Shown here in pieces: positions 1,691 through 30,155 of a DNA stretch of 64,000 bases. The first letter of the stretch is position 1; the number at the start of each line of letters is the position of its first letter. The notes under the pieces are model-generated. The model was given only the letters and a program-made list of their open reading frames with translations, was not told the origin of the DNA and ran no database searches. A program made the position numbers and the translations under genes. The stretch is from Catenovulum agarivorans DS-2 (GTDB lineage: Bacteria > Pseudomonadota > Gammaproteobacteria > Enterobacterales > Alteromonadaceae). The stretch lies in assembly GCF_000568405.1 (NCBI RefSeq), contig NZ_ARZY01000003.1, forward strand, positions 62,001-126,000, in the 5' to 3' direction.

Positions 1691-1695
1691 ACATT

Positions 1696-4599: not shown

Positions 4600-4612
4600 T
4601 GGTATTTAATAA

Positions 4613-5101
4613 CTAAAAATCCACATGCATTGCAATTTGTGCCAATGCGCGGCTGATATGTTTTTTAACTGCTTCTTCGCTTAGGTCTAATTCTTGCGCG
4701 ATTTGCTCGCGTGATTGATTGTGCAAACGGCGGCGAATAAATACTTGTTGGCGCATTGGTGGCATGGCGTTGAGTACTTGCTGAATTTTTTCAATTTGTT
4801 CGTTTTGCAACAAACTGTCTTCAGCGCTGTGGCTTTCGCGTAAATCGCTGCTTTCGTCGTACACTTCAAAACTGCGATTGCCAAGTTTCCAAGCAAAATG
4901 GCGTGCAACTGTTATTGCATAAGCAATTGGATTTTTTATGGGGGATTGTTGGTGTTGTTCAATCACTGTGGTGAGGGTTTCTTGATAAACATCGGCTTGA
5001 TCATGCTGATCGGCAACCCATTTACGGATCACACCTTTCAGTTTTGATTCTTCTTTTAATAATTCTGAAGTTATTGAGTAATCGCTATTGTTGTTATTCA
5101 C
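4613..5101 (-). CDS. ECF sigma factor, FecI-like
   Basis: Short (162 aa) sigma-70 family factor with region 2 (including a DVYQETLTTVI-like core) and region 4 (MPPMRQQVFIRRRLHNQS...ISRALAQI helix-turn-helix). GTG is the likely start. It would direct RNA polymerase to the receptor and phospholipase genes when released by the FecR at 731-1690. The gene is oriented against the receptor gene, with only 13 bases between their 3' ends. It is divergent from the PI-PLC gene across 204 bases that should carry both promoters; I could not define a shared promoter motif there. Function as an ECF factor is well supported; the pairing with this FecR is inferred from proximity. Confidence 0.85.
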   Translation of the reverse strand: MNNNNSDYSITSELLKEESKLKGVIRKWVADQHDQADVYQETLTTVIEQHQQSPIKNPIAYAITVARHFAWKLGNRSFEVYDESSDLRESHSAEDSLLQNEQIEKIQQVLNAMPPMRQQVFIRRRLHNQSREQIAQELDLSEEAVKKHISRALAQIAMHVDF

Positions 5102-5305
5102 AGCCAGCTACCGTCACCTGCTTGCCTAAAACGGTCAACATGCTGGCAGAACATTGTGACAACTAAATTACTGTTTAGTTAAGTATTACTTTTATGCCAA
5201 AACCCTAAAACCCTTCATAAAAACGTCATAAAAATTTTTGTCCCCGGTTTGACCTGACAAATCTCATTTATCTACGAACGCGCTTTTTACCGCGATTTTT
5301 AGGAA

Positions 5306-6418
5306 ATGAGAAAAATGATTTTACGTATCGCCATCTATCTAACTTTGTTAACTACATGCTCAGTGCATGCTTTGCCGCTAAATCAGTTGCAGGTTATTGG
5401 CAGCCACAACAGTTATAAAAAAGCTTTAGACTCTGATATCGCAAAACAGCTTAATAGCTTACAAGCAGGTTTTGCTGACAAAATTTCCTATGCGCATCCA
5501 AGTTTAACTCGCCAGCTGGATATGGGGCTACGTCAATTGGAGATTGATGTATTAGCCGACAGCCAAGGTGGTTTGTATCAACAACCGCTGGCACAGCAAT
5601 GGACAAACCAAGCTTTATATTCAGCCACTGAAAAACAGCAACTCGCCGAGCCGGGTTTTAAAGTTTTGCACATTCCAGATGTGGATATTGCGAGTCATTG
5701 TATTCAATTTTCTGACTGTTTGGCTGAGCTAAAAACTTGGTCGATAAACAACCCAAATCACTTGCCTGTGTATGTAATGTTTAACGTTAAAGAAAGTCGC
5801 TGGGGCAAAATTAGCGGGGTTAAACCAGAGCAATTTACAGCAAAACATTACCAACAACTCAATCAATTGATTGTTGATCAATTAGGTTTAGACAAGCTTT
5901 TAACTCCAAGTTTAGTGCAGCAACAAAATTTGTCGTTGGCACAGTCGGTTAAACAATTTGGCTGGCCGGATGTTGAGCAAGTGCGCGGTAAATTTATTTT
6001 TATTTTTGACGGTAATCCGAAGCAACTGGATTTGTTTGAACAAGCGGGTGACACAGTTATTTTTGGTGCATTTAATATTGAGCACAACCAAGCAGCGATT
6101 TTGCTTTACAACAATCCGCAGCAGCAAGCAGAGCAAATTAAACACGCTGTTGCACAAGGTTTTATCGTGCGTACCCGTGCCGATGAATTTAATGCCAAAC
6201 GTTCCCCTAATCAGCGTGCGCTCGCGGCAATTAACAGCGGCGCACAAATTATTTCGAGCGATTTTTATCTAGGTGCAATGCAACAGCCCATCAATGCGCC
6301 ATCAGTCAGTTTTCATTTGTTAATGCCACAACTTCAACCACAGCAAACGCAGGTGCAAACAAATTTGCCCTTTGTTCGCTGTTTGTCCGAAGTCGGTGTT
6401 AATGGATGCAATTTTTAA
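5306..6418 (+). CDS. Secreted Ca2+-dependent phosphoinositide phospholipase C-like (PI-PLC C1 type)
   Basis: Predicted exported phosphodiesterase that cleaves phosphatidylinositol-type lipids or related glycerophospho-inositol substrates. A signal peptide ends near residue 22. The active-site start, IGSHNSYK with His34, is followed by LEIDVLAD (Glu79, Asp81) and HIPDVD (His122). These match the TIM-barrel of the bacterial 'phosphatidylinositol-specific phospholipase C1-like' family rather than the small Bacillus PI-PLC. The start is ATG at 5306 behind TAGGAA. The next receptor gene follows after 31 bases, so the two form an operon. The pairing of a lipid/inositol phosphodiesterase with TonB receptors suggests nutrient scavenging. 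Exact substrate is not deducible. Confidence 0.78.
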   Translation: MRKMILRIAIYLTLLTTCSVHALPLNQLQVIGSHNSYKKALDSDIAKQLNSLQAGFADKISYAHPSLTRQLDMGLRQLEIDVLADSQGGLYQQPLAQQWTNQALYSATEKQQLAEPGFKVLHIPDVDIASHCIQFSDCLAELKTWSINNPNHLPVYVMFNVKESRWGKISGVKPEQFTAKHYQQLNQLIVDQLGLDKLLTPSLVQQQNLSLAQSVKQFGWPDVEQVRGKFIFIFDGNPKQLDLFEQAGDTVIFGAFNIEHNQAAILLYNNPQQQAEQIKHAVAQGFIVRTRADEFNAKRSPNQRALAAINSGAQIISSDFYLGAMQQPINAPSVSFHLLMPQLQPQQTQVQTNLPFVRCLSEVGVNGCNF

Positions 6419-6449
6419 AATTATAAATGTTACTTAATTTGGAGATAGT

Positions 6450-9164
6450 ATGAAAATGCAAGGTTCAAAACAGCTTATTCGTGTAGCGGTACTCGCAGCA
6501 CTCGCAGGTTATTCACACAATAGTTTTGCTGAACAAACAGCTGAGCAACAAGCGACAATGGAAGAAATTACCGTTAAAGGTTTTCGCCAAAGTTTATTAA
6601 AAAATCGTGACGTAAAACGTGATGCATTAATTGCACAAGACAGCATAGTTGCAGAAGATATTGCCGATTTTCCAGATTTAAACTTGGCTGAATCCCTGCA
6701 ACGTGTACCGGGTGTAACTATTACCCGCGAAGGTGGTGAAGGCCGGCAAATTTCTTTACGTGGTTTAGGCCCAGATTTTACTCGGGTGGAATTAAATGGT
6801 TTAGATGTTTTAGCAACCAGTGGTTCTAGTATGGATAGCCGCGGCCAAAGTAATCGTTCACGCGGGTTTGATTTTAACGTATTTGCCTCTGAATTATTTA
6901 GCCAAATTGATGTTAAAAAAGCCTTTTCTGCCAGCATGGAAGAAGGGGGCATTGGCGGCACGGTAGCGTTGCGTCCAGCTAAACCATTTGACTATGAAGG
7001 TTTTCAAGCCGCTGTGTCAGCACAAGCAGGTTCTAACTCAATGGCGGATAGCACTAGTCCAAGATTTGCTGCATTAGTTTCTAACCGTTGGGATAACTTT
7101 GGGGCTTTATTCTCAGTTGCCTATAGTCAACGAGATACTGTAGAGCAAGGTACCAATACTTATAGATGGCGTCCAAAAGATGCATCAGGCTCAGATATCA
7201 GCAAGCTAGACCAAGCAACACAAGATAAAATTAATAATAAAGAGCTGAGATTTGCCCGCGGTAATCGTTATTCAGTTTGGGAGAACGACCAAGAGCGTTT
7301 AGGTTTGACTGCTGCTTTCCAATACAACGCCACTGATAGCTTGTCGTTTGACTTAGACATTTTATATGCTGAGTTGAACAACAATAAAGATGAACACCAT
7401 ATTGCCACGCGCGGCTCAAGTTCTACTGCATTGGGTGGTACAACGACTGCTGGTGGGCAAACGGTTGGCGGTGCTGTTATAAATCAGCTGCAATACAACC
7501 AAAATGGTGAGGTGGTGTACGCTGATATTGGCAATGCAACTCTGGCAACCGAAAGCCGTAAACAACAAATGGACACGTCCTTTAGCCAAATTTCATTGTT
7601 AACTGAGTGGCAAATAACCGACTCTACAGTGGCTAAACTATTATTAGGTCACTCTGAAAATGAGTTTGTAATTCCGGTGAGCGACAAGGTGTATTACGAA
7701 GGTTTTGGTGGTATTACGTCAGATTACACCAAAGATAGATTTTATGCAGAGCATAGCTATGACTTTGATATTGCTTCAATTGATAGTTGGAAAATGCACG
7801 AATTCGACTTAGACGAAAGTGTGCAAAATACCCAATTTGATTCAATAAAACTGTCGTTCGAATCGTTTTTAACTGATTCGGCAGAGCTTAAATATGGTGT
7901 GCTACACAAGAAGTTTGTTTCTGATGGTTACAACTATAAAGTTAAAGATGCATTAAAAGGTCAGTTTCAGTCTGGTGAAATTTCCAATGTATTGGACCCG
8001 AGTTATTTTGAAGTATTTACCGCACACGACAAAGCGGATTGGGCCGCTGGTGATGTGGCTAAAACATTAGCATTTTATAATGTTAATGCTGACTTAACAG
8101 CTGATGATTTAGATATTAATAGTGTTTACGATTTATCTGAAACCACAAGTGCTGCTTGGGTGGAATACCAATGGCGCAATGAGGTGCTGTCGGGTAATTT
8201 TGGTGTACGTTATGTTGAAACCGAAGTTGAATCAGCTGGTTACATTCAACAAGAAGGTGACAGCCAACCTAATTTAACAAGCGTTCCGCAAGAATACACT
8301 GATGTATTACCTGCTCTAAACTTAGTTTGGCATGTTACCCAAGACATGCAATTGCGTGCTAGTGCCAGCAAAAATTTAACTCGCCCCGCGTTAGCTGATT
8401 TAGCCATAGCGGGCAAGGTGAACACTGAAGTAAATGAACTGCGCTCGGGTAATCCTAGATTATCACCGTTTGAATCAACTAATTATGAAACTGCGTTGGA
8501 GTGGTATTTCACTGATAGTGGTTTTATGTCGGCAGGTGTTTTTTACAAAGACATTAAAAACTTTGTTATTAGTAAAGCAATAGAAATGCCGTATGGGCAA
8601 ACCGGCTTCTCAACTGATTTATTAGCGCAAGGGCAAAGCGCCGATACCTTGTATACTTATTACACTAAGGTAAATGGTGAAGACACCAGCATTCAGGGTT
8701 TAGAGTTAGGCGGTCAGTTTGATTTTAGCTTTTTGCCTGCACCCTTTGATAACTTAGGCGTGATTGCTAACTATACATTCGCCGATGGTGAAATGGATTA
8801 CTACGACGCGGGGGAGTTGTTTGCAACCAAAGCTTTCCCTGGGTTGTCTGAACATTCTGCTAACGCGACACTTTATTATGAAACTGAAACTTGGGGGGCT
8901 CGTATTTCCACCGCTTATCGCAGTGAATATATAACCCATATAGAAACACCAGGTAATTCAGATCAAGATGAAACTGGCTTCCACGGCACTACTTATGTTG
9001 ATTTTTCAGCATTTTATCAGTTGAACGACACAACTAAGTTTACCTTTGAAGCGATTAATTTAACCAACCAAAGAGAAGAGCAGTACAGTGACTCGGACGA
9101 TCGTTTATATAACACCACTGAGTTCGGTTCTACTTTTTACTTAGGGGTTAATTTTAAATTCTAA
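6450..9164 (+). CDS. TonB-dependent receptor (uptake paralogue, no STN domain)
   Basis: Outer-membrane active transporter of 904 aa. It has a signal peptide (about 1-27, ending SFAE), a TonB-box-like segment near MEEITVKGF, and a plug with LAESLQRVPGVTITREGGEGR and RGLGPDF. A 22-strand-type barrel follows, with a final strand ending in Phe. It has a clear ribosome site (GGAGAT) and lies 31 bases after the phospholipase. Sequence blocks shared with the receptor at 1696-4599 show the two are duplicates. This one lacks the STN extension and is likely the bulk importer while the other reports ligand. Its transcript ends at a strong hairpin just downstream. Confidence 0.88.
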   Translation: MKMQGSKQLIRVAVLAALAGYSHNSFAEQTAEQQATMEEITVKGFRQSLLKNRDVKRDALIAQDSIVAEDIADFPDLNLAESLQRVPGVTITREGGEGRQISLRGLGPDFTRVELNGLDVLATSGSSMDSRGQSNRSRGFDFNVFASELFSQIDVKKAFSASMEEGGIGGTVALRPAKPFDYEGFQAAVSAQAGSNSMADSTSPRFAALVSNRWDNFGALFSVAYSQRDTVEQGTNTYRWRPKDASGSDISKLDQATQDKINNKELRFARGNRYSVWENDQERLGLTAAFQYNATDSLSFDLDILYAELNNNKDEHHIATRGSSSTALGGTTTAGGQTVGGAVINQLQYNQNGEVVYADIGNATLATESRKQQMDTSFSQISLLTEWQITDSTVAKLLLGHSENEFVIPVSDKVYYEGFGGITSDYTKDRFYAEHSYDFDIASIDSWKMHEFDLDESVQNTQFDSIKLSFESFLTDSAELKYGVLHKKFVSDGYNYKVKDALKGQFQSGEISNVLDPSYFEVFTAHDKADWAAGDVAKTLAFYNVNADLTADDLDINSVYDLSETTSAAWVEYQWRNEVLSGNFGVRYVETEVESAGYIQQEGDSQPNLTSVPQEYTDVLPALNLVWHVTQDMQLRASASKNLTRPALADLAIAGKVNTEVNELRSGNPRLSPFESTNYETALEWYFTDSGFMSAGVFYKDIKNFVISKAIEMPYGQTGFSTDLLAQGQSADTLYTYYTKVNGEDTSIQGLELGGQFDFSFLPAPFDNLGVIANYTFADGEMDYYDAGELFATKAFPGLSEHSANATLYYETETWGARISTAYRSEYITHIETPGNSDQDETGFHGTTYVDFSAFYQLNDTTKFTFEAINLTNQREEQYSDSDDRLYNTTEFGSTFYLGVNFKF

Positions 9165-17220: not shown

Positions 17221-17247
17221 AAAGCCGCAGTTAATCACTGCGGCTTT
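17221..17247. terminator. Bidirectional terminator between kdgK and sulfatase
   Basis: Stem AAAGCCGCAGT (17221-17231) and ACTGCGGCTTT (17237-17247) with a 5-base loop. It carries T-rich flanks on the + side and an A-rich start that gives T on the - side. It lies between convergent genes and overlaps the sulfatase stop codon. Confidence 0.8.
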
Positions 17248-19174
17248 TCAGGTAATCTATTCTTGCGTTTGTCCAATATTGGGTAACACGCTGTTGATGG
17301 TTGTCAGCTTGCCGATTGCTCGATTTTTGCCAGTTTTCTCTAATTGGTATATCGAATGTGTGTCCTGCAATATCATGCAAGGTGGCAGCAATATTCAGCA
17401 TTTCAAGTGCTTGTAAGGTGTTTTCAGTCGTTGCAATTAATTTGGTTAAATTTTCTGTTGGCTGGAAATGATTTGCCAAGGTTAAAAATTCAAGCGCTCG
17501 AGCTTTGACCAATGTGTTTGTCGCTGAGGTAAATAATTTGCGTACTTGTGGCACAATTGACTGTGCTTGCTGATTGAAGCTCGACAAGCCAATAAGCGCC
17601 CAATATTGCTGGATACTATCGCTAGAGTTTAGTGCTTTGGTCAATTCAATTTTGGCTTGTTGCCATGGTTTTAATTGTGCATTGGCAATATCAATCAGTT
17701 TAGATATATTGTGTTTATGTAAGTTGGCAAATTTTGCTGGGTTAGAAAGTGCATGCTGATGCAGATAGTATTCTGGATAAAAAGACAGGTCGGGCATGGC
17801 TTTTAACTTTTCGGTCAGCTGAGCTCTTAATCTCCTGACTGTCTGAGCAAATTGTGGTTCAGTTGCAAGGTTATTGCTTTCAAATGGATCCGCTTCAATA
17901 TCATACAAAGCCTCAGCGCTTTTTGCTTGGAAAAAGCTAGCTTGCTCAGCAGTCAACTTTCCTGCATTAAATAATGCTCGCCATTCTCGGTACGCAGCTT
18001 GCTGATACCTGTATTGATTGTGTAACCCATCAGGAATAAAAGGGAAGAAATTGCGTACATATTTATACTTGCCCACGCGCAAACTTCTTACCATATCTAA
18101 TTTTTCATCAAACCTGTCAGCATAGGCAAAACTGGTATTGCGTTGGTTTAATTGTTTTAAACTTATATCAGCGGTTAAAAATGCTTGGCCATCATGGTAT
18201 TTAGAGCGAGGAGCTCCGGCTAATTCAGCCAGAGTTGGCGCGAAATCGACAAAATTAACGACTCCGTCAATTCTGGCGTTTTGCAAGTTTTGCAGATCTG
18301 GATGAAGCAAGTGTTTAAAGTTTTTCGGGATACGAACAACCAACGGCACGTGTAGACCGAGCTCGTTAGCATATCCTTTAGTGCCAGGAATGACTCCGCC
18401 ATGATCGGCAAAATAAAAGATAAAGGTATTTTCTAATTCACCGTCCGCTTTTAGTTGTTCAATCACTTTGCCAATCTGTTGATCGAGTTGCTGATGTTGG
18501 TCTAAATATCTCGCATAGGTATACCTGAATAGCTCGGTATTCGGGAAGTTTTTTGGCAGTTTTATTTTGTCGGGATTATGCTTTGTCGGTTTTGTTTTTA
18601 CGTCGCTTGCTGGAAAGTGCAAATTGTACTCATGAGTTGTTGTCCATGTTTGCATATGGAAAAATGCTTGACCAGCTTCTCGATTTCGCCAGCTGGCGCT
18701 ATTGCTTGAGTCATGCCAAACCGGATCTGCGGTATTTTCAACAAAGTTAAAATCGTTTTTGCTGTTGTTGCTTGTGTAGTAACCTGCATCACGAAGAATT
18801 TGTGCAATTGGTTTTAATCCTGAGGGTAGCTGGCTTTCTGAATATCGCCTGTGGTAGTTTAACGCCAATTTGGGGGCATAAGCCCCCGTCGCTAACGTTG
18901 TTCGCGCAGTAGAACATACGGGAGCATTGGAAAATGCGTTATTAAATATTAGGCCTTGTTTGGCTAATGCTTCAATATTCGGCATTTTTGCGCCCTGTTC
19001 GTGGTAGAGGCGCGAAAAGATATAAGAATTATCTTCCGATACTAACCATAAAAAATTGGGTTTCTCAGCTGGTGATTGAGCAAAACTACTATTGAATTGA
19101 GTGAAAATAGCAATCATGCTCAACGTCAGAACCTGAAAAGCTTTTAAGTGTTTTGTCTGGTTAGTCTTCATCAT
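17231..19174 (-). CDS. Secreted S1-type sulfatase with C-terminal helical repeats
   Basis: Alkaline-phosphatase-fold sulfatase, 647 aa, with a signal peptide ending near residue 32 (SFAQ). The metal-site strand reads LWLVSEDNSY, and the formylglycine motif is C87-S-T-A-R in NAPVCSTARTTLATG. This deviates from the usual C-x-P/A-x-R at the third position. Later motifs DHGG and a WLH/LHVPLVVRIP-type block are present. The last ~150 residues look like HEAT-type helical repeats, as in several planctomycete sulfatases. It is second in a transcript behind the small ORF 19217-19420 and the ECF-type promoter at 19505-19533. The substrate is probably a sulfated algal galactan, inferred from context. 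Confidence 0.85.
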   Translation of the reverse strand: MMKTNQTKHLKAFQVLTLSMIAIFTQFNSSFAQSPAEKPNFLWLVSEDNSYIFSRLYHEQGAKMPNIEALAKQGLIFNNAFSNAPVCSTARTTLATGAYAPKLALNYHRRYSESQLPSGLKPIAQILRDAGYYTSNNSKNDFNFVENTADPVWHDSSNSASWRNREAGQAFFHMQTWTTTHEYNLHFPASDVKTKPTKHNPDKIKLPKNFPNTELFRYTYARYLDQHQQLDQQIGKVIEQLKADGELENTFIFYFADHGGVIPGTKGYANELGLHVPLVVRIPKNFKHLLHPDLQNLQNARIDGVVNFVDFAPTLAELAGAPRSKYHDGQAFLTADISLKQLNQRNTSFAYADRFDEKLDMVRSLRVGKYKYVRNFFPFIPDGLHNQYRYQQAAYREWRALFNAGKLTAEQASFFQAKSAEALYDIEADPFESNNLATEPQFAQTVRRLRAQLTEKLKAMPDLSFYPEYYLHQHALSNPAKFANLHKHNISKLIDIANAQLKPWQQAKIELTKALNSSDSIQQYWALIGLSSFNQQAQSIVPQVRKLFTSATNTLVKARALEFLTLANHFQPTENLTKLIATTENTLQALEMLNIAATLHDIAGHTFDIPIRENWQKSSNRQADNHQQRVTQYWTNARIDYLKSRSD

Positions 19175-19216
19175 ATACGGCCTTGTGTTATCTGCGATAT
19201 TTAAGTTTTTATCATT

Positions 19217-19420
19217 CTATTCAGCACAACGAGAGCGAGCGCATAAACGGCGCAATGCGCCGGCATCTGCGTTTTTAATGGCGTGATTAATGTTGGAGAT
19301 CAGTTTCCAGCCTGTTGCAAATGGGTATTGAGCATCGAAATCGATGGTTTTTGCTATCAATTTGCTGCTCAATAATAAAAAGCAGCCTACTATGAGTATT
19401 AGTGTGTTCGGTCGTTTCAT
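19217..19420 (-). CDS. Small secreted hypothetical protein, or remnant, leading the sulfatase transcript
   Basis: A 67-residue frame with a convincing signal peptide (MKRPNTLILIVGCFLLLSS, cleavage near IAK) and a short mature part ending with two Cys (LCARSRCAE). The start is ATG at 19420 with GGTGA upstream. It lies 42 bases before the sulfatase and about 80 bases after the TGTGTCA promoter, so it should be the first product of that transcript. I do not recognise it. The abrupt end suggests it may be the truncated 5' part of a larger lost gene. Confidence 0.45.
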   Translation of the reverse strand: MKRPNTLILIVGCFLLLSSKLIAKTIDFDAQYPFATGWKLISNINHAIKNADAGALRRLCARSRCAE

Positions 19421-19504
19421 AAAGTCACCATAAAAGTAGATAACCTGAATTGAGGTTAAACAAAGCAATTAACTAAGCGTGTCGAAGTTTTGATATACAT
19501 GGTC

Positions 19505-19533
19505 TATTGGTGATTGTTTACCAAATTGACACA
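19505..19533 (-). promoter_or_regulatory. ECF-type promoter A (sulfatase transcript)
   Basis: Read on the - strand: TGTGTCA (19527-19533), 16 bases, CCAATA (19505-19510). The same two boxes with identical 16-base spacing occur at 23077-23105, 25666-25694 and 25778-25806. The spacer carries GGTAAACA, similar to the TGTAAACA and TGTTAACA in the sites at 23077 and 25778. Predicted start of transcription is near 19498, 78 bases before the small ORF. Confidence 0.7.
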
Positions 19534-21111: not shown

Positions 21112-23040
21112 TTAATCAGGAATTAAATCAGCTGGAATATTTAAGCTTTTATCATCCGCACCTTTAGCAAAATTACTGATGTGATAGCTGTTAGCTTTTG
21201 ACCAGTCAGCTTCTACACGGCCATCACCTAACACTATGTTGCCGAGTTTTTGTCTAAACCAGTTGGCAAGCGCTTTGTATTCTTTATCGTAAGCGACATT
21301 GTTACGTTCTAGCGGATCTTTGGCCAAGTCGTATAAACTCATTTCCACTTTTTCTGCTGGTGCAACTAATGCCCATTGCAAGTTTTTACCGAGCTGTTTT
21401 TCATTCACCCAATTATTGAATGGGCGGGTTCGCATTGAAAATCTAAACCTGTCGCTGTGTAAATACGCCCTAGGGCCGGCAATCACGTTTATTTCACCCA
21501 GTATATAATCCCGTTTGGGCAGGTTTTCGCTGTATACATCAAATAGGTTTAAGCCATCTAAATATTGGTATTTTTGTTGATAAACATTGTCGCCAGCCGC
21601 GGTCAAAATTGTTGGTGCGAAATCAACAAATTCAACTAGGTCACGGTAGACACCTCCTGCTGGCACAATAGATTTATCTGACGCAACGGCTAAAATTGCA
21701 TTCGCGACCGACTGCTTCCATGGGCCAAACTTGGCTTCCATTCCTTGCTCACCTAAATGCCAACTATGATCGCCAATAGCGAATAGAATTAAATATTCTT
21801 GGTTGTTTTCTTCACTATATTTTTTAAAAGCCTCAACTGCTTCGCCAATTAATGCATCACCATAGGCGGTAAATGCATAATAATCTCGGATGGCTTGTTG
21901 TTTTTGCTCGTAGGTCATCTCGTCAATTTTGCCGGCGTTGTAAATACGCTTTAATTGCTCAGGTAGTTTATCCAGTTCAGATTTTTCAAATTTAGGGATG
22001 TCATAAACTTTATCTTTAAATCTGTCTCTAAAGGATTTTGGTGGTAATACTGGGGTATGTGGCAAATGGAACCCTAGATTCAAAAATTGCGGTTTACTGG
22101 TGTCGGCACCTTTGGCGGTTTTGCCCCACGAGGTTTTAAAGCTTTTATTTGCGTTGGCTAAGTAGTTTTTAAACTCTTTAACAATATAAGCATCTACCGT
22201 TTCGCCTGCTGGCTGTGGGTTAACGCCGCCTAAAATTAAGTTAGTATTGCCACGGGTATAAGCACGTAGTAAATCGAACTCTTGATTAACGCTCTCGATT
22301 GCTGCTATGTCTTGTTGGGTAAGATCAGCTTGGTGCCGTTGCAGGAAATATTGTTTCTTGCGTCCATCAGGATACAACACTGTTTCAACCGTGCCTTGTT
22401 TGTTAGGTTTTTTATTCCAATCGTACAAAACTTTAGTAAACAGGTCGCCTTTGCCATTTTTTTGCAAGTCGTGTTTAAAGTGCACTTTATAGTCATATAA
22501 ATTGGCGTCATGGAAACCTTGCCCAGGACCCCATTTAAATATGTAGCTGTCTTCTTTACCAAAAGTTGCAGTTTGATAACCCAATTCACGTATTGATTGC
22601 GAAACTGTAGGTTTGACAAAATCTGGGTTTTGATGAGTTAGTTCAAATGCATAATGGCCGTTTCTAAACGGGTATCGTCCAGATAACATTGAACCGCGAG
22701 ATGGCCCGCACACTGGCGATTGGTTAAATGCATTGGTATAAAATACCCCTTCGGTTGCGAGTTTGTCGATATTTGGCGATTCAACATAGCCTAACGGACT
22801 ATTTTTTTGTCCAAAAACTAGTTGGTTGTAGTAACTAACAGAATCAGGTCGTTGATCATCGGTAATGATCCATAATATATTTGGCTGCGATTTAAACTTG
22901 GCAGACGGCTTTTTCGGTTCAAACACCTTGTTAGCTGCGCTTGGCGATTGGCTGGTCGTAGGGGCTGTGCAACTTGCTACGGTTAATGGAATCAAACAAG
23001 TTGCCAACAAAGTTCGACTCGAACGTAAACTCAACTTCAT
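21112..23040 (-). CDS. Lipoprotein S1-type sulfatase
   Basis: Sulfatase of 642 aa with a lipobox (Cys24 in LTVASC), so membrane-anchored. Metal-binding strand ILWIITDDQ, and a canonical formylglycine motif C111-G-P-S-R in [17 protein letters not shown]. Further motifs: [13 protein letters not shown] and [11 protein letters not shown]. It is strongly paralogous to the sulfatase at 25902-27773 along the whole length, including the [16 protein letters not shown]-terminal block. Together they flank the sigma/anti-sigma genes. It has its own ECF-type promoter at 23077-23105. Iduronate-sulfatase-like in overall pattern; the substrate is likely a sulfated algal polysaccharide but cannot be fixed. 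Confidence 0.88.
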
Positions 23041-23076: not shown

Positions 23077-23105
23077 TGTTGGTAAATTGTTTACAAAGTG
23101 ACACA
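23077..23105 (-). promoter_or_regulatory. ECF-type promoter B (lipoprotein sulfatase)
   Basis: On the - strand: TGTGTCA (23099-23105), 16 bases, CCAACA (23077-23082). The spacer contains TTTGTAAACAATT. It lies 37 bases upstream of the start codon of the sulfatase at 21112-23040. It belongs to the four-member set described at 25666-25694. Confidence 0.72.
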
Positions 23106-23192: not shown

Positions 23193-25058
23193 TTAGTCTT
23201 CCGTTACTGCAGAAAATTCAAAGTTATCAAAATGAACTACTGCACCTTCTTTCATCAGCATCTTCATTTCAAACCGGCCATCTTCAGGTATTTTTTCAGC
23301 AGGTATTTTAATTCGTACCCTAATTAAGCCGTCATTATCTACCCAATAAATACCCCGTTGATAACCATAACCGGCCCATTCTGGCGTGTAATAAATACCG
23401 CCAGTGTTGGGCATTTGCCTGAGCGCAGCTTTACCTTCCACTACACGCAAATCGTAAGCAAATAAATAGTCGGTTTGGTTATTTATTTGGTCGGTGATAA
23501 ACGCATCACTGGTAAATTTAATATGCATTTCGCCTGTGGTGCTATTAGCATATAAACCATAATTTCCATCAATTGCTGCTTCTTCGGTTACTTGTAAAAT
23601 AGCAAAGTTTTCCTGACCTATTTCACGCTGTATAGTCAAACCTGTGCCTAAAGCGCCGCTTTCAAAACCACGGGTTTGTTCTTTTATAAAGTTTTCTGCA
23701 GGTGGAATTTCCACAAGTTCCACATTGTCTAAATACCATTCTTCGTTGGGTGTCCAAAAAGCTATTTCAACAAAGGTGAAAGTATCTGGCCAATCTTGCC
23801 CATGGATTATTTTCTCATGATGCTGCCATGTGTTGTCTCTTGGCATTCTAAACCACGGGCCATGTGCAGTTGTTTGATATTTGGCGTTAAAACTATTATT
23901 AAATCTTGTGTAACCAATAGCGGATTCGGCATTATCAGTCAGGCGTTTTATGTCGTAACTGAGCTTGTATTGTTTGTGTTTTTTAACAAAACCCGCTGGT
24001 AAAACCGAATGTTTTATTTTGATAAACACTGGACCAGAGTTCATGGTGTTTATGTGTAAACCATAGTTACCAGACTTAGCGGCCTCAGGTGTTACTTCTG
24101 CAAAACCTAAACTCTTTACATCGACCAACCAATGGGTTAAATCACCAGTTTCGAATCCCATATTGAGTCCACTTACGATATTGATTGGCGTATTGCTGTG
24201 GTTGTTTGTTTCTGCTGGGTCTTGTTGTTGTGGCTCTTTGTGACCTGAAGGCGCGATGCTTTTCGGTTTTATGCTTTCAACTTCATTGCTGCTTTGTTTA
24301 TGGATACTGTCGAGCGAACCTGATGTTTTTACTTCGCCCTGCGCATCTATTGTAAACGAAAATGGCAAGTTTTCCTGGCGGTAAATCGGAGTGACGTCTG
24401 CTTCTTTTGAGTTTGCCAACGCCGATACTTGGCGGTCATTTGCTTGGGCGATAACATAATTGGCACTGGCGGTTTGCACGTAAAAAGCGGGCGAATTAGC
24501 CGGTAAATCGACAGCTAATTGACCTTGAATAATTCGGACATTACTGGCACTTTTTATATCTAAATGCGTTGGCGAGCTAGCTGTGATTTTCGTACCATTG
24601 TTAAATTGTATATGCGCCTGACCACTCAGCATTTGAAAAGGGCCAGGAGACAACTGAAATGCCTCTAACTCAGAGACTTGCACTTCGCTTGTTACGGGTT
24701 GGTATTTTACACTTGCAAAGGGTTGGTTTGGTTGTTCTAACGAAAACCAAATTAATGCACACAAAAAAATGCTTGCCGCAATAGAGGTACCTTGAAACCA
24801 ATAACGTTTTATGTGGCTAACTTTAGCTAAGTTTGCTTGCTGAGTTGTTTTTTGTTGTTTAATGCGCGCCATAATTTCATCGGAGAACTCAGCTGAGTCG
24901 TGCTGCTTGAGTTTGACTTGCATCAACCTATGGGTTAACACATGGCGAGCCGATTTTTGTTTAAACTGTGGATCTTTTTCCCATTCTTGCTGCAGCTCAG
25001 CCCGGTTATCTTCACCCGCTATGAAACTTGCTAATAGTTCATCTTGATACTTGTTCAT
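23193..25058 (-). CDS. FecR-type anti-sigma factor fused to two carbohydrate-binding-like modules
   Basis: A 621-aa single-pass membrane protein. Residues 1-80 form a cytoplasmic helical part resembling the anti-sigma N-terminus of PVC-group FecR proteins. Residues 88-107 are the membrane helix, about 140-235 a FecR-like domain, and 240-297 a Ser/Pro/Gln-rich linker. Two homologous jelly-roll-like modules follow, at about 299-451 and 464-617. Each starts with a G-F-E-(T/S)-G motif, continues with VTxEAA...GNYGL, and ends with a (Y/H)(L/F)DN(V/F)E(L/F) strand. This is the CBM4/9/22-type pattern. The start codon overlaps the sigma stop (ATGA). I infer a periplasmic polysaccharide or oligosaccharide sensor controlling the sigma factor and the flanking sulfatase/agarase genes. 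Confidence 0.82.
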   Translation of the reverse strand: MNKYQDELLASFIAGEDNRAELQQEWEKDPQFKQKSARHVLTHRLMQVKLKQHDSAEFSDEIMARIKQQKTTQQANLAKVSHIKRYWFQGTSIAASIFLCALIWFSLEQPNQPFASVKYQPVTSEVQVSELEAFQLSPGPFQMLSGQAHIQFNNGTKITASSPTHLDIKSASNVRIIQGQLAVDLPANSPAFYVQTASANYVIAQANDRQVSALANSKEADVTPIYRQENLPFSFTIDAQGEVKTSGSLDSIHKQSSNEVESIKPKSIAPSGHKEPQQQDPAETNNHSNTPINIVSGLNMGFETGDLTHWLVDVKSLGFAEVTPEAAKSGNYGLHINTMNSGPVFIKIKHSVLPAGFVKKHKQYKLSYDIKRLTDNAESAIGYTRFNNSFNAKYQTTAHGPWFRMPRDNTWQHHEKIIHGQDWPDTFTFVEIAFWTPNEEWYLDNVELVEIPPAENFIKEQTRGFESGALGTGLTIQREIGQENFAILQVTEEAAIDGNYGLYANSTTGEMHIKFTSDAFITDQINNQTDYLFAYDLRVVEGKAALRQMPNTGGIYYTPEWAGYGYQRGIYWVDNDGLIRVRIKIPAEKIPEDGRFEMKMLMKEGAVVHFDNFEFSAVTED

Positions 25059-25618
25059 GCCATTGTTCCAGTTAGACGCTTGTCTATACAGTTGCGTAAT
25101 CGTTCACGAATTCTATGTAGGCGCATTGTCATTGCTGAGTGTTTTACTTGGTGTAATTTGGTTAACTCGTCCACTGTATAGCCTTCGGTATAATGCTGCT
25201 TAATCAATGTATGGAATTTGTCATCTACTTTTTCTAAACACTGTTCTAGTGCGATTAACATTGAATCTTCACTATGATTGCTCAGCTCACTTTCTATTTC
25301 TGCGGATAAAACTTCTTCAAAATCGCTAATATCTACACTCGTTCTGCCGCCGTTTTTTCTGAAATAATCTTTTAGCAAGTTGAGCGCTATGCCTTTTAAC
25401 CAAGGTCTAATTGAACGCTTTATGTCAAACTCATTGAGCTTCTTATACGCGATAATAAAGGCTTCTTGGGCGATATCATCCGCTTCGCTGATGTTTTGCA
25501 TACGGACCGCCAGAAAAGCTCTTACATCGCTTTGATAACGTTTTATTATTTCAGCAAAAGCTTGATCATTGCCTTGCTGAGCTAAACGAATAACTTCGCT
25601 TTCTTCGTCAGAATTCAA
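25055..25618 (-). CDS. ECF sigma factor of the sulfatase/agarase cluster
   Basis: Sigma-70 family ECF factor with region 2 (QAFAEIIKRYQ...AFLAVRMQNISEADDIAQEAFIIAYKKL) and region 4 (LEQCLEKVDDKFHTLIKQHYTEG...MRLHRIRERLR). It resembles factors abundant in Planctomycetes/Verrucomicrobia. The frame is open up to a GTG at 25693, but that codon has no ribosome site and lies inside a promoter (25666-25694) whose transcript would start downstream of it. I therefore place the start at TTG 25618, behind GGGGGAG, giving 187 aa beginning just before region 2. It overlaps the anti-sigma gene by 4 bases. Probably autoregulated. Confidence 0.83.
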   Translation of the reverse strand: MNSDEESEVIRLAQQGNDQAFAEIIKRYQSDVRAFLAVRMQNISEADDIAQEAFIIAYKKLNEFDIKRSIRPWLKGIALNLLKDYFRKNGGRTSVDISDFEEVLSAEIESELSNHSEDSMLIALEQCLEKVDDKFHTLIKQHYTEGYTVDELTKLHQVKHSAMTMRLHRIRERLRNCIDKRLTGTMA

Positions 25619-25665
25619 AAACTCCCCCAGTCGACAAATTGAAGTTTCTTTTTGTGCACTTCTTA

Positions 25666-25694
25666 TATTGGTGAATAAATTGCTTTTTGACACA
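25666..25694 (-). promoter_or_regulatory. ECF-type promoter D (sigma/anti-sigma operon, autoregulatory)
   Basis: On the - strand: TGTGTCA (25688-25694), 16 bases, CCAATA (25666-25671). Predicted transcription start is near 25658. Boxes and spacing match promoters A (19505-19533), B (23077-23105) and C (25778-25806). The consensus is TGTGTCA-N16-C(C/G)AA(T/C)A. All four are the only sites of this form I found in the window, and all serve this cluster. Confidence 0.72.
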
Positions 25695-25777: not shown

Positions 25778-25806
25778 TGTGTCAAATTGTTAACAGCTTG
25801 CGAATA
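25778..25806 (+). promoter_or_regulatory. ECF-type promoter C (sulfatase-GH50 operon)
   Basis: TGTGTCA (25778-25784), 16 bases, CGAATA (25801-25806), with the palindrome TGTTAACA in the spacer. It diverges from promoter D, about 83 bases away, so sigma autoregulation and structural gene expression share one intergenic region. Predicted transcription start is near 25813. Confidence 0.72.
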
Positions 25807-25850
25807 AGGACTAATCTTCGCTAAAAGGGTTGTGTACGCCCTTGAAGTTT

Positions 25851-25878
25851 GCCCTCCTATATTAGGAGGGCTTTTTTT
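25851..25878 (+). terminator. Intrinsic terminator in the 5' leader of the sulfatase-GH50 operon
   Basis: Stem GCCCTCCT (25851-25858) and AGGAGGGC (25864-25871), loop ATATT, then seven T. It lies between promoter C and the start codon at 25902, so transcripts from promoter C must pass it. A smaller hairpin (AAGGG 25825-25829 with CCCTT 25839-25843) precedes it. It can only act on + strand transcripts. Either it attenuates the operon or it ends a roughly 65-base RNA. Confidence 0.78.
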
Positions 25879-25901
25879 AATTAGTATAAACTTAGGTGAG
25901 C

Positions 25902-27773
25902 ATGATGAACAAAAGTATCGTTGCGTCTATGTTGCTGGCGTGTACAGTGAGTTTTACTGGCGTGGCAAAACAACCAAACATTTTATGGATTATTACCGAC
26001 GACCACCGTCCTGATTCTATACAAGCTTATAATCGGGCAACAACTGGCAAGAGCGAAAGTGAACTTGGTTATGTAATGTCGCCAAATATCGATAGGTTAG
26101 CGAGCGAAGGCACCATGTTTACCATGGCGTTTAATAATTCTCCGGCTTGTGGCCCTTCACGAACGTCAATGCATACTGGGCGTTATCCTTTTCGCAATGG
26201 TAAATATGGCTGGGAGCAAACCCACCAAGAAGCTGATTTTGTAAAACCCGCTATCTCGCAAATATTACGCGATGCTGGCTATGCCACTGCGATTGTCGGT
26301 AAACACCATGTGGGCATTTCTGAAAAGCGTAATTATCAGGGCAAACCTATTTTTGATTTTAGTTTGGAGTACAATCGTGATTTACATAAGCATGGTTTTG
26401 GCGGCCTATATTCAACTGGAGCTTATGGTTTAGTTGATGAAGTGTTATTGCGTAAAGATGCAACTGAAACCATTTTTTACCCAGACGGTCGAGTTAAGAC
26501 TTATCAATTATCATGGGCTGACCGCAAACTTAATGCTGCCGAGTTAGCTGTAAAACGTAGTGTTGAACAAGAGTTTGATATCTTGCGCGCATATACGCGC
26601 ATCAATACAGGCCTTATTTTAGGTGGGGTGAACCCTCAGCCTGCAGACAAAACGGTAGATGCTCGTATTGTTGAAGAGTTTAAAAACCATCTTGAACACG
26701 CGGGACAGTCCTACCGGACCTTGGCTGGAAAAAAAGTTCAAGGTGCAGATGCAAGCAAACCATTATTTGTTAATTTGGGTTTTCACTTACCACACACGCC
26801 TGTGTTGCCTCCTAAAGAATTTCGTGACCAATTCAAACATAGAAAATATAAGTTACCAGAATTTGATTCTGATGAGCTGGCGTCTTTTTCACCACAGCAA
26901 CAGCAGATTTATAATGAATCTAAAACCGACATGATGACTTATGCCGAAAAGCAACAAGCAATTCAAGACTATTATGCGTTTACTGCGTTTGGCGATGCGT
27001 TGATTGGTGAAGCGGTGGAAGCATTTAAACAATATAGCCAAAAACAGGGTAAGGAATATCTAATTGTATTTACGGTCGGTGATCACGGTTGGCACTTAGG
27101 TGAGCAAGGCATTATGGCCAAATTTGGCCCTTGGAAACAATCAACTAACGGTGCTGTGATTGTGGTTTCGTCAGATAAAAAACAGTTTCCCGCGGGCAAG
27201 GTAGTCGATACTTTTGTTGAGTATGTTGATTTTGCGCCAACGTTTTTTTCAGCTGCTGGTTTAGATGTTAACAGTAAGCAATTTTCCTATTTGGATGGAT
27301 TTGATCTCGATACTATTTCCAATAATCGCGATTTTAGACGTGACTACATTCTTGGTGAAATGAATTTAGTCAGTGGTCATCGAGCTTATCTAAGAACCAA
27401 AGATTTTGCTTTTTCTATGCGCACACGCGATCGCCGTACAGTCGCAAAAGCGCCACTATTAAACGACAACATTCGCTGGGCATTAACAACAGATCCACTT
27501 AAAGCGGACATGGCTTTATATGATTTGCGAACCGACCCGCTCGAAAGGCGTAATGTCGCTTACACGGTTGAATACCTCAAGCTGGCCAATTGGTTTAGGC
27601 AAAAATTGGGCAATATAGTGCTGGGGGATGGTCGAATTGAAATGGATTGGACGACCAAAAATAGCTACAGCTTAAGTAACTTTGCTGCGGGCGCTGATGA
27701 TAAAAAAATCGAAATTCCGACTGAGTTAGTTCCAGAGCAGGGGATTGTGCGCCCAGAACGTTTGAACCTATAA
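25902..27773 (+). CDS. Secreted S1-type sulfatase
   Basis: Sulfatase with signal peptide (mature from about residue 23), TDD metal strand (IITDDHRPDS), formylglycine motif C83-[17 protein letters not shown], and GDHGWHLGEQG. It is close to the lipoprotein sulfatase at 21112-23040 but carries no lipobox. The start was set at ATG 25902, with AGG seven bases upstream; a GTG two codons earlier is also possible. The GH50 agarase follows after 18 bases, so the two are co-transcribed from promoter C. Probably desulfates a galactan so the agarase can act, or vice versa. Confidence 0.88.
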   Translation: MMNKSIVASMLLACTVSFTGVAKQPNILWIITDDHRPDSIQAYNRATTGKSESELGYVMSPNIDRLASEGTMFTMAFNNSPACGPSRTSMHTGRYPFRNGKYGWEQTHQEADFVKPAISQILRDAGYATAIVGKHHVGISEKRNYQGKPIFDFSLEYNRDLHKHGFGGLYSTGAYGLVDEVLLRKDATETIFYPDGRVKTYQLSWADRKLNAAELAVKRSVEQEFDILRAYTRINTGLILGGVNPQPADKTVDARIVEEFKNHLEHAGQSYRTLAGKKVQGADASKPLFVNLGFHLPHTPVLPPKEFRDQFKHRKYKLPEFDSDELASFSPQQQQIYNESKTDMMTYAEKQQAIQDYYAFTAFGDALIGEAVEAFKQYSQKQGKEYLIVFTVGDHGWHLGEQGIMAKFGPWKQSTNGAVIVVSSDKKQFPAGKVVDTFVEYVDFAPTFFSAAGLDVNSKQFSYLDGFDLDTISNNRDFRRDYILGEMNLVSGHRAYLRTKDFAFSMRTRDRRTVAKAPLLNDNIRWALTTDPLKADMALYDLRTDPLERRNVAYTVEYLKLANWFRQKLGNIVLGDGRIEMDWTTKNSYSLSNFAAGADDKKIEIPTELVPEQGIVRPERLNL

Positions 27774-27791
27774 AATGTGAGAAAAGATATT

Positions 27792-30155
27792 ATGAATTTT
27801 CGCCGAAAGACTATGTTGCACTTGGTATGGCCAATTGCGTTAGCATCGTTAGCCGCTTGCCAAGCTAAGCAAGAGCACAAGACCAAAGATACCCTGATAT
27901 TTGGTTTTGAAAGTTCCCAAGTGCCTGCTGAGATAAAACTCTCGAACGCGTCCGCCGAGCTGGTTTCTAAAACTGAAGGGACCACTGAAGGGGCGCAAGC
28001 ACTGCGGGTAAAATTTTCATCTAAACACAACGAACATGCTGCAATCCATATTGAGCCAGCTAAGCCATTTGATTGGAGCGAACTATCCGACTTTAACCTT
28101 GCTTTTGATATGGCAAATCAAGGCAAGCATTCTACCTATTTATGGTTAAAAGTAACAGATGTGGATGGCAAAGGATTTTCACGCGCGATAAATGTACCAG
28201 TTGGTGAGAGCCGAACCTATTACGCTAAGTTAGATGGACATGATTTGGGGTCGCCAAATAACGATAAAGGTGAGCAGGTTGAGTTAAATTTAAGCTCTGG
28301 TTTGCGTTCAAATCCACCGACCTGGCAAAGTGACGATGAACAATTCACATGGATGTGGGGAGCTAAACATTTAAACCTGAGTGGAATTAAAAGGATTAGC
28401 TTAAGCGTGCAATACAATATGCATGACAAAGAAGTCACAATCGATAACATTCGGTTACGCGCTAATCCTGCAATGGATAAAAACTTCTTGGTCAATATTG
28501 TGGATAAATATGGCCAGAACGCCAAAGCTGAATTTGCCGAAAAAATTCATAGCGATAAAGAATTGCAGGCAAAAACTCAACAAGAATTGGCAGAGCTTAA
28601 AGCTAATCAACTAATGGACGATCGTTCCGACTATAGTGGTTGGAAAAAAGGTCCAAAACTTCGTGCAACAGGTTATTTTAGAACGGAAAAAGTCGATGGG
28701 AAATGGTGGCTTGTTGATCCACAAGGCTACCTATATTTAGCCACTGGTATAGATATTATTCGCTTAGCCAACTCTACCACTATGACAGGTTATGACTTTG
28801 ATCAAGCTTTAATGAAAAAGCGTGACACAGAGAATGTCACACCTGAGGACTCGCAAGGTTTAAATACGGTGGACAAAAATATAGCAAAAACACGTCAATT
28901 GGTTTCAAGCACGCGTGCCAATATGTTTGAGTGGTTGCCAGAGTCATATGATGATCCATTAGCGGACCATTTTGGCTATCGTAAAAGTGCTCATTCTGGG
29001 CCGTTAAAACACGGCGAAGTGTTTAGTTTTTACAGTGCAAACCTTGAACGAAAATATGGTGAAAGCAGCAACAATTCTTTTTTAACTGACTGGAAGAATG
29101 TCACAGTTGATCGTATGCGCAATTGGGGTTTTACCTCACTCGGTAATTGGACCGATCCTATGTTTTACGACAATGCCAAAATTCCATTTTTTGCCAATGG
29201 CTGGGTGATAGGTGACTATAAAACGGTATCAAGCGGTAATGACTTTTGGTCGCCTATGCCAGATGTATTTGATCCAGAATTTGCCCGTAGAGCGGAAGTC
29301 ACTGTTAAACAAATTGCGGCTGAAGTCAATAACTCACCTTGGTGTGTTGGTGTATTTATCGACAATGAAAAAAGTTGGGGTCGTTCTAACTCTCGCAACA
29401 GTGAATTAGGCATTGTGATCCATACCTTAACCCGAGACGGTAAAGATAGCCCAACCAAAGCCAAATTTACTCAAGTAATGCGCGATAAATATGCTGATAT
29501 AAGTAAGCTTAACCAAGCGTGGGGCACTGACATTCAATCTTGGTTGGCGTTTGATCAAGGTCAGTTTGATTCAAGTTTAACCAATGAAGTACAAGATGCT
29601 GATTATGGACACTTGTTATACGTATATGCACAGCAATACTTTAAAGTTGTTAGTGGCAAGCTAAAACAATATATGCCAAACCATTTGTATTTTGGGGTCA
29701 GATTTGCCAGCTGGGGTATGCCAAAAGAGGTAATTAAAGCATCTATTCCATACACAGATGTAGTTAGCTACAACCATTATAAACAAGGTGTAACCGACAA
29801 AAAATGGCAGTTCTTACAAGAAATTGATAAACCCTCTATGATAGGTGAGTTTCATTTTGGCGCTAAAACTTCAGGTTTCTTTCATCCTGGGTTGATTCAA
29901 GCGGCTGATCAACAAGACCGCGCAGCCATGTATAAAGATTACATGCGCTCTGTATTTAATAACGATTACTTTATTGGCGCACATTGGTTTCAATACATGG
30001 ATTCACCTATCACAGGTAGAGCTTACGATGGTGAGAACTATAATGTAGGTTTTGTTACTGTGGCGGATATTCCATACGAAGAAATGGTCAAAGCTGCCAA
30101 AGAATTGCACAGCGAAATGTATCAAAAACGATTTGAGCGTAAGGCAAATAATTAG
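27792..30155 (+). CDS. GH50 beta-agarase, lipoprotein
   Basis: Glycoside hydrolase family 50 enzyme cleaving beta-1,4 bonds in agarose, typically exo-acting and releasing neoagarobiose. Lipobox LASLAAC near residue 21 implies membrane attachment. The N-terminal ~200 residues form the CBM-like domain usual in GH50. The (alpha/beta)8 domain begins near GPKLRATGYFRTEKVDGKWW. Predicted acid/base Glu526 lies in DNEKSWG, the nucleophile Glu686 in IGEFHFGA. The start is ATG 27792; an in-frame GTG at 27777 lacks a ribosome site. Same transcript as the preceding sulfatase. It shares the same architecture with the second GH50 enzyme at 53813-56140. Confidence 0.9.
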   Translation: MNFRRKTMLHLVWPIALASLAACQAKQEHKTKDTLIFGFESSQVPAEIKLSNASAELVSKTEGTTEGAQALRVKFSSKHNEHAAIHIEPAKPFDWSELSDFNLAFDMANQGKHSTYLWLKVTDVDGKGFSRAINVPVGESRTYYAKLDGHDLGSPNNDKGEQVELNLSSGLRSNPPTWQSDDEQFTWMWGAKHLNLSGIKRISLSVQYNMHDKEVTIDNIRLRANPAMDKNFLVNIVDKYGQNAKAEFAEKIHSDKELQAKTQQELAELKANQLMDDRSDYSGWKKGPKLRATGYFRTEKVDGKWWLVDPQGYLYLATGIDIIRLANSTTMTGYDFDQALMKKRDTENVTPEDSQGLNTVDKNIAKTRQLVSSTRANMFEWLPESYDDPLADHFGYRKSAHSGPLKHGEVFSFYSANLERKYGESSNNSFLTDWKNVTVDRMRNWGFTSLGNWTDPMFYDNAKIPFFANGWVIGDYKTVSSGNDFWSPMPDVFDPEFARRAEVTVKQIAAEVNNSPWCVGVFIDNEKSWGRSNSRNSELGIVIHTLTRDGKDSPTKAKFTQVMRDKYADISKLNQAWGTDIQSWLAFDQGQFDSSLTNEVQDADYGHLLYVYAQQYFKVVSGKLKQYMPNHLYFGVRFASWGMPKEVIKASIPYTDVVSYNHYKQGVTDKKWQFLQEIDKPSMIGEFHFGAKTSGFFHPGLIQAADQQDRAAMYKDYMRSVFNNDYFIGAHWFQYMDSPITGRAYDGENYNVGFVTVADIPYEEMVKAAKELHSEMYQKRFERKANN

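Follow-up and report, generated by a model that had tools for sequence, protein, structure and literature searches.

An extracytoplasmic function (ECF) sigma factor and a membrane-bound anti-sigma factor, encoded by two overlapping minus-strand genes of Catenovulum agarivorans DS-2, were analysed in a 64-kb stretch of this Catenovulum genome (C3:62001-126000 of the 4.57-Mb genome G000; hereafter the window). The pair was read as an ECF switch that responds to sulfated galactans of red algae, in which a galactan-derived ligand would engage two modules of the anti-sigma factor that resemble carbohydrate-binding modules (CBMs) and the sigma factor would drive a promoter-like element; we give this reading a probability of about 0.55. 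At the level of sequence it is supported by the gene pair, the topology and CBM-like fold of the anti-sigma factor, the kinship of its module 1 with CBMs of glycoside hydrolase family 86 (GH86)-type enzymes and the shared promoter-like element. The anti-sigma gene is located at 23193-25058 (621 aa, transmembrane) and the sigma open reading frame (ORF) as listed at 25055-25693, with a GTG start at 25693. The ATGA overlap of the two genes was found as the first-pass annotation of this stretch had described it. The flanking genes named there, three sulfatases and a GH50 agarase, were also recovered as three PF00884 genes and one PF17992 gene; GH50 for the PF17992 agarase and GH86 for the porphyranase/agarase-type enzymes are what we take these proteins to be from their domain matches.

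The anti-sigma factor, with all its parts on the minus strand, begins with a cytoplasmic anti-sigma domain (residues 1-80, 24819-25058) and a single transmembrane helix identified by hydropathy (residues about 89-107, 24738-24794). These are followed by a FecR-like region (residues 140-206, 24441-24641), a low-complexity linker rich in S, N, Q and P (residues 250-293, 24180-24311), module 1 (residues 294-453, 23700-24179) and module 2 (residues 457-620, 23199-23690). The N-terminus matched RseA_N with an E value of 4.6e-4 and 21.1 bits, below the cut-off of 24. Four helices were seen in this domain in a low-confidence full-length model (3 alignment rows; predicted local distance difference test (pLDDT) score of 40, and 65-79 for a block covering residues 1-40 only) which was used for secondary structure alone. 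The helix at 89-107 showed a mean Kyte-Doolittle value of 1.61 compared to 0.71 for the best segment elsewhere, and is preceded by K84-R85. The cytoplasmic N-terminal part and the one membrane helix proposed in the first-pass annotation are thus borne out by the RseA_N match, even below its cut-off, and by the one hydrophobic segment, and the duplicated C-terminal part by the match of module 1 with module 2 (E 1e-4), both falling in one profile family. The FecR-like domain stood in part: the match of the protein itself to FecR PF04773 was very weak (E 0.091, 13.6 bits, cut-off 24), but a paralogue with a LamG head (L003) aligned with residues 2-202 (E 1.4e-15) and passed FecR with 34.1 bits, and it is mainly for this reason that the label was kept. 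Since the N-terminus has to meet the sigma factor in the cytoplasm, the membrane is crossed once and the cell is Gram-negative, the CBM-like modules must be periplasmic.

Membership of both modules in the CBM4/9/16/22-like beta-sandwich superfamily was supported by homology to solved members and to the CBMs of GH86-type enzymes. A profile of 37 aligned modules (A2), from which repeat loci (L001, L002, L004, L005, L014, L015, L030, L059, L045 and L054), the split L027 and weak matches were left out, was searched against solved structures (PDB) and matched CBM16 entries (E 8e-4), 8xmz (1.7e-3), a hyaluronate lyase module (6e-3), the CBM4 entry 1gui (9e-3) and a xylanase module (0.04), the CBM families being those given in Foldseek titles or presumed by us. 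A Foldseek search with a low-confidence model of module 1 (6 rows, pLDDT 52.5, predicted template modelling score 0.55) placed CBM16 (E 4e-4) and a hyaluronan-binding module first, with 8xmz, titled a novel porphyran-binding CBM, at rank 13 in a list that also has clearly irrelevant beta-rich proteins; these matches are suggestive only and are cited as agreement with the sequence profile. Several results count against the assignment. Both structure models were of poor quality (pLDDT 40 and 52), a 6-row profile of the window modules and their orthologues (A3) found no CBM among the solved structures, and the single window sequence gave chance matches only. In Pfam no CBM was matched by the window anti-sigma at E values up to 1, CBM_4_9 (PF02018) included, for which the relative L016 reached 20.7 bits against a cut-off of 25.9. 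The CBM4/9/22-like character proposed in the first-pass annotation, and the profile and structure checks that it suggested, therefore held at the level of the superfamily, by A2 and Foldseek, and not at that of PF02018.

The same module family was found at the ends of GH86-type enzymes in the own genome (L006, L008) and in relatives. Seven of the 11 GH86-type enzymes passed PF02018 as whole proteins (L006, L008, L018, L019, L021, L031, L036) and four fell below it (L020, L025, L026, L034); the best PF02018 stretch was the second module in L006, L018 and L031 and the first-module type in L021 and L036. Module 1 of the window was 29-46% identical to ten first CBMs of these enzymes (L018 46%, L019 37%, L021 36% and 36%, L020 35%, L036 35%, L031 33%, L006 30%, L025 29%, L026 29%). 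In a tree of 33 of the 37 A2 rows (L009 and L010 rows left out), module 1 of the sensors grouped together (94/91) within the first CBMs of GH86-type agarases/porphyranases, and module 2 formed a separate group (100/100). The branches that nest sensor module 1 were moderately supported (84/82, 92/87, 83/74), and its capture from an enzyme is therefore likely, not proven. Modules of this family were also present, as a pair, in an 836-aa protein without Pfam match that follows a TonB receptor gene (L010:607-6690) and is possibly a surface glycan-binding protein.

The aromatic platform of the enzymes is probably altered in the sensors. An aromatic residue at position 314, which we take to correspond to a sugar-binding tryptophan of CBM16 from our own reading of the structure-profile alignment, was present in 10/10 enzyme first CBMs compared to 2/8 sensor modules (V in the window), and one at position 379 in 10/10 compared to 1/8 (S in the window). 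The binding site was thus probably remodelled, which counts against the proposed switch, as does C. maritimum, where the sensor is present and no enzyme with this module was found; such an enzyme is therefore not obligatory. L035, which branches off first within the sensor group, retains both aromatics. The losses at 314 and 379, together with aromatics at 319 (7/8), 357 (8/8) and 435 (5/8) which occur in sensor rows and in none of the enzyme rows, would also agree with modules that bind no sugar: the pair would still control the sulfatase and agarase genes, but the modules would bind a protein partner (an outer-membrane or periplasmic one, or an enzyme) or form a steric cap over the cleavage site. 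Classic FecR-type anti-sigma factors are protein-triggered. However, the new aromatics could also form a new sugar site, the tryptophans at 310, 402 and 411 and an aromatic at 423 are kept in 8/8 sensor modules, and no partner gene but sulfatases recurs at most loci. A non-sugar role was judged rather unlikely, although a protein as ligand is the chief competitor of the oligosaccharide reading.

Direct binding of polymer or long chains at the cell envelope, as in the direct polysaccharide sensing of RsgI, was judged improbable. The CBM-like fold, the GH86 kinship of module 1 and the long linker ahead of the modules would suit it, but one membrane helix with an N-terminal sigma-binding domain would leave the modules in the periplasm, to which polymer has no free access, and the aromatic platform is probably altered. 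The claim of the first-pass annotation that the galactan itself is sensed was weakened by the same two points. With periplasmic modules of which most have lost the aromatics at 314 and 379, the ligand is more likely to be an imported oligosaccharide or something else than the polymer, and the galactan-derived ligand of the proposed switch is understood here in that sense.

Relatives of the anti-sigma factor were found in the named species C. maritimum (L012, 75% identity) and C. sediminis (L013, 53%). Of 246 sampled genomes of the family, with up to five candidates scored per genome, 15 gave any match at E 1e-5 and five had the two-module protein (G000, G085 of C. maritimum, G193 of C. sediminis, G050 and G049), with two copies in G193 and three in G049, hence at least 8 in total. 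Within Catenovulum, four of eight genomes carry the two-module type. Among 394 genomes sampled from the order, 369 from the class and 398 from the phylum, with up to three candidates scored per genome, there was no two-module copy beyond the genera already found; these samples overlap and, evidently through the draw, did not contain three known carriers, so that they no more than hint at rarity outside the family. Both modules were present in all eight copies. The sigma gene adjoins seven, the exception being an orphan (L073:7710-9686, the protein also listed as L035) that lacks both a sigma gene and the N-terminal domain. A sulfatase directly adjoins five of the seven sigma-linked pairs (the window, L012, L013, L072, where an agarase is also present, and L075). 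In the other two, a GH86-type gene lies about 4 kb off (L074) or right-handed beta-helix proteins are found (L071), and no gene except sulfatases recurs beside most sigma loci. Sulfatase 21112-23040 of the window recurs as a neighbour of the pair in C. maritimum and C. sediminis; in C. maritimum it is split into two listed ORFs of 82 and 544 aa, perhaps through a break in the gene or a misreading.

The FecR-like region was absent in two of the eight copies (L017, L029) and is dispensable, as judged from these relatives. This bears on signalling by a TonB receptor encoded elsewhere in the genome, which would act through the FecR-like region and leave the CBM-like modules as accessories. The region is present in 6/8 copies, and TonB receptor genes occur in L010 and, two of them together with a separate FecR gene, at 731-9164 of the window; but L017 and L029 retain the modules without the region, and the sigma loci looked at had no TonB receptor as a neighbour. 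Within the window, the nearest receptor located is that at 6450-9164; no ORF of L071-L075 had either window TonB receptor as best match at E 1e-6, and the ORF lists of L012 and L013, judged by eye, showed no adjacent receptor. Such signalling was regarded as very improbable. Of the claimed sensing without a TonB receptor, the absence of a receptor gene beside the pair was upheld, but not the sensing of the galactan itself. The FecR gene and the two TonB receptor genes at 731-9164, accompanied by a PI-PLC-like gene, look like a conventional cell-surface signalling set.

In three species, the sequences ahead of the sigma gene and of sulfatase genes have a promoter-like element in common, TGTGTCA followed after exactly 15 nt by an ACCAATA-like box. 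Its site at the sigma gene (25666-25694, minus strand) reads TGTGTCA-N15-ACCAATA and suggests autoregulation. A second site (23077-23105, minus) lies 36 nt before sulfatase 21112-23040 (minus, PF00884), a probable target also by synteny, and a third (25778-25806, plus) 89 nt before sulfatase 25896-27773 (plus, PF00884), another probable target. The presumed GH50-type beta-agarase at 27777-30155 (plus, Agarase_CBM PF17992, E 4.5e-69) lies 3 nt behind the latter, probably in one transcript with it. The fourth site (19505-19533, minus) precedes a decayed gene and, at a distance of 330 nt from the site, sulfatase 17231-19174 (minus, PF00884), a possible third target. When a matrix trained only on five sites of C. 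maritimum and C. sediminis was used to scan the 64-kb window, the four window sites ranked first with 25.2, 21.4, 21.4 and 18.1 bits, the next site reaching 10.1 bits and the best of 25 order-1 Markov windows 17.6 bits. The test was not fully independent, as the window had been in view when the motif was recognised and the training sites include orthologues of three of the four; the site without a training orthologue (25778) had the highest score. Second boxes at 15 nt were present for 4 of the 19 TGTGTCR in the window.

Exact matches to TGTGTCRN15RMSRAYA compared to the reversed pattern were 9 vs 2 in the own genome, 4 vs 1 in C. maritimum, 4 vs 1 in C. sediminis and 31 vs 16 in all nine genomes. 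The nine of the own genome comprised four in this locus, one beside a LamG system and four within ORFs elsewhere (C1 and C13 antisense, C9 and C23 sense). These last four were not counted as targets; the one in C9 lies 215 nt ahead of another sulfatase, yet within an ORF. A 9-site matrix was also applied to 23 stretches (444 kb) with a reversed control and produced, at 15 bits, five sites outside training vs none in the control (best control 14.4). They precede the start of a sulfatase in C. maritimum (L077, 26.2 bits, with an ORF of just 197 aa), a LamG-system sigma gene (L082 in G112, 21.2), a sulfatase of the own genome (L007, 19.0), a GH2 gene (L081 in G224, 18.6) and an agarase of C. maritimum (L077, 15.8). 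Overall, the shared promoter-like sites and the adjacency in relatives support a predicted tie between the sigma/anti-sigma pair and the sulfatase/agarase genes.

Other observations on the element weigh on the opposite side. At 11 bits the 9-site matrix gave no excess (16 sites outside training vs 14 in the control), a genome scan with two mismatches amounted to noise (72 vs 59 in the control), so that no wider regulon is claimed, and at the two-module loci in G049 and G050 and the second G193 copy TGTGTCA was mostly kept with a loose second box. In addition, a terminator-like hairpin of 9 pairs followed by T7 (25851-25871, plus) lies between the site at 25778 and the sulfatase start. The fold of 25813-25900 had a z value of -3.2, with 0/200 shuffles as stable. 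Terminator-like hairpins were not enriched across the region (3 found vs 3.4 expected), and Rfam gave no match above gathering score at 25851-25871. This hairpin is possibly an attenuator or a short sigma-dependent RNA. Finally, since LamG-type loci have the same element, their sigma factor could be its reader in place of the sigma factor of the CBM type, and the two types may share targets. The decayed gene behind the strong site at 19505-19533 (about 19175-19470, minus) resembled L013:12166-13155 at its start (53% over 49 aa) and, weakly, the end of L013:16220-16999 at its end (E 0.012); the two counterparts lie apart in C. sediminis, with a transposase-like ORF, so labelled by eye, between them.

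The LamG-type systems (L003/L007, L076-L084) have a related sigma factor and anti-sigma N-terminus, agarase or sulfatase neighbours and, at several loci, the same promoter-like element, but the anti-sigma factor ends in a Laminin_G_3 head and not in two CBM-like modules (six checked, the rest by BLAST similarity). Anti-sigma factors matching residues 1-206 but not the modules were present in 7/8 Catenovulum genomes (head unchecked in G113). The pair of this type in the own genome (L007:7096-15779; head FecR and Laminin_G_3) is accompanied on the same strand by GH16, GH43-like and FAD oxidoreductase genes, with a transporter-like ORF (by eye) also beside it. A promoter-like site lies 39 nt before the next sulfatase, and the corresponding position in C. 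maritimum has one 38 nt ahead of a short sulfatase ORF. Tentatively, the two types could form an interchangeable ECF sensor family for red-algal galactans in Alteromonadaceae, with one sigma and promoter type and a head that is either LamG or a CBM pair, its module 1 taken from a GH86 agarase/porphyranase and re-tuned, by loss of polymer-stacking aromatics, for periplasmic degradation products.

The window sigma factor matched Sigma70_r2 (E 8.4e-14) and Sigma70_ECF above cut-off in Pfam, and TIGR02937 with 76.4 bits (cut-off 42.9) over profile positions 2-164 of 165; the Pfam region-4 models on their own matched below cut-off. The GTG at 25693 is part of the promoter-like element, and the true start is therefore probably the TTG at 25618, which is preceded by GGGGGAG and gives a gene of about 187 aa (25055-25618, minus). 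The sigma ORFs of relatives had 185-191 aa in L012, L016, L028 and L017, and as listed were also longer in L013 (221 aa) and L029 (229 aa). TIGR02989 (Rhodopirellula/Verrucomicrobium family) was the best-scoring family for all eight sigma factors, with 119.9 bits in the window, below the cut-off of 124.55, and 103.5-121.7 bits in seven relatives. These scores raised the suspicion of a horizontal origin from Planctomycetes/Verrucomicrobia.

Under the proposed switch, the resting state would be one in which the N-terminal domain of the anti-sigma factor tethers the sigma factor to the inner membrane. In the periplasm, a galactan-derived ligand, most likely an imported and perhaps sulfated oligosaccharide, would engage both CBM-like modules at the C-terminus. 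A first protease would then gain access to the periplasmic part, RseP would cut in the membrane helix, and the freed sigma factor would drive the TGTGTCA-N15-ACCAATA promoters of the sigma gene itself, of the neighbouring sulfatases and of the agarase operon. A protease of the RseP family is present in the genome (1 PF02163 match). We infer from the locus that this sigma factor reads the element and activates the listed genes, what the ligand is and that it would be an oligosaccharide, and the route of proteolysis.

Farther from the sigma pair, the window has a second agarase of the PF17992 type (53813-56140) and a porphyranase-like gene (56281-58317; Porphyrn_cat_1, BPA_C). A PVC-type heme-binding CxxCH protein (50609-53023, minus; TIGR02604 153.3 bits, cut-off 122.2) is encoded near the second agarase.

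To our knowledge, the sensing of sulfated seaweed polysaccharides by marine bacteria is poorly known, and the locus offers a compact test case, with a sigma factor, a sensor that has a module related to those of the enzymes, and a predicted promoter that points to targets. If the proposed switch is true, CBM-based anti-sigma sensing, established for Clostridia, would be extended to a Gammaproteobacterium, and the evolution of a sensor by capture of an enzyme binding module would be illustrated. Among the literature matches listed, mostly open-access papers judged by title and start of abstract, there was no gammaproteobacterial anti-sigma factor with CBM modules. Like the FecI/FecR systems of cell-surface signalling, the pair combines an ECF sigma factor with a FecR-like single-pass anti-sigma factor, but here there is no adjacent TonB receptor, FecR is below cut-off, the N-terminus is RseA_N-like and CBM-like modules are added. 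The ECF41 promoter TGTCACA-n16-CGTC, as given in an excerpt of PMC3426412, has a similar first box and a different second box.

SigI/RsgI of Clostridium thermocellum, in the excerpts of PMC10575876, likewise consists of an operon of a sigma factor and a single-pass anti-sigma factor with an outward carbohydrate-binding module, and controls polysaccharide-degrading genes. However, SigI is described there as lacking the sigma4 domain and the RsgI heads named are CBM3, whereas here the sigma factor is an ordinary ECF one and the modules are CBM4/16-like and, the cell being Gram-negative, periplasmic. No Pfam or NCBIfam match to the RsgI N-terminal domain was found in the window anti-sigma at E values up to 1, with RseA_N in its place. 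A further mark of RsgI is that its extracytoplasmic domain undergoes autoproteolysis. The RsgI parallel drawn in the first-pass annotation thus keeps its shared logic as an analogy only, as neither the sigma partner nor the N-terminal domain agrees. Membership in RsgI, FecR and PF02018 was considered and, on the searches above, is not claimed. ECF52/ECF53 of Actinobacteria are also ECF systems with predicted carbohydrate-binding or glycosyl hydrolase domains, but in these the anti-sigma portion is fused C-terminally and here two genes are present; the excerpted review states that experimental validation is lacking (PMC10766802). Gram-negative ECF/anti-sigma control of polysaccharide genes is described in the same excerpts for Bacteroides/Cytophaga, often with TonB-transporter genes and in another phylum with another substrate, and a figure legend has arabinoxylan bound, in Bacteroides xylanisolvens, by a carbohydrate domain of the membrane protein of an ECF system (PMC10766802). 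In view of the actinobacterial predictions and the arabinoxylan case in these excerpts, the general idea of ECF sensing through carbohydrate-binding domains is not new, and the system described here is RsgI logic with unrelated parts.

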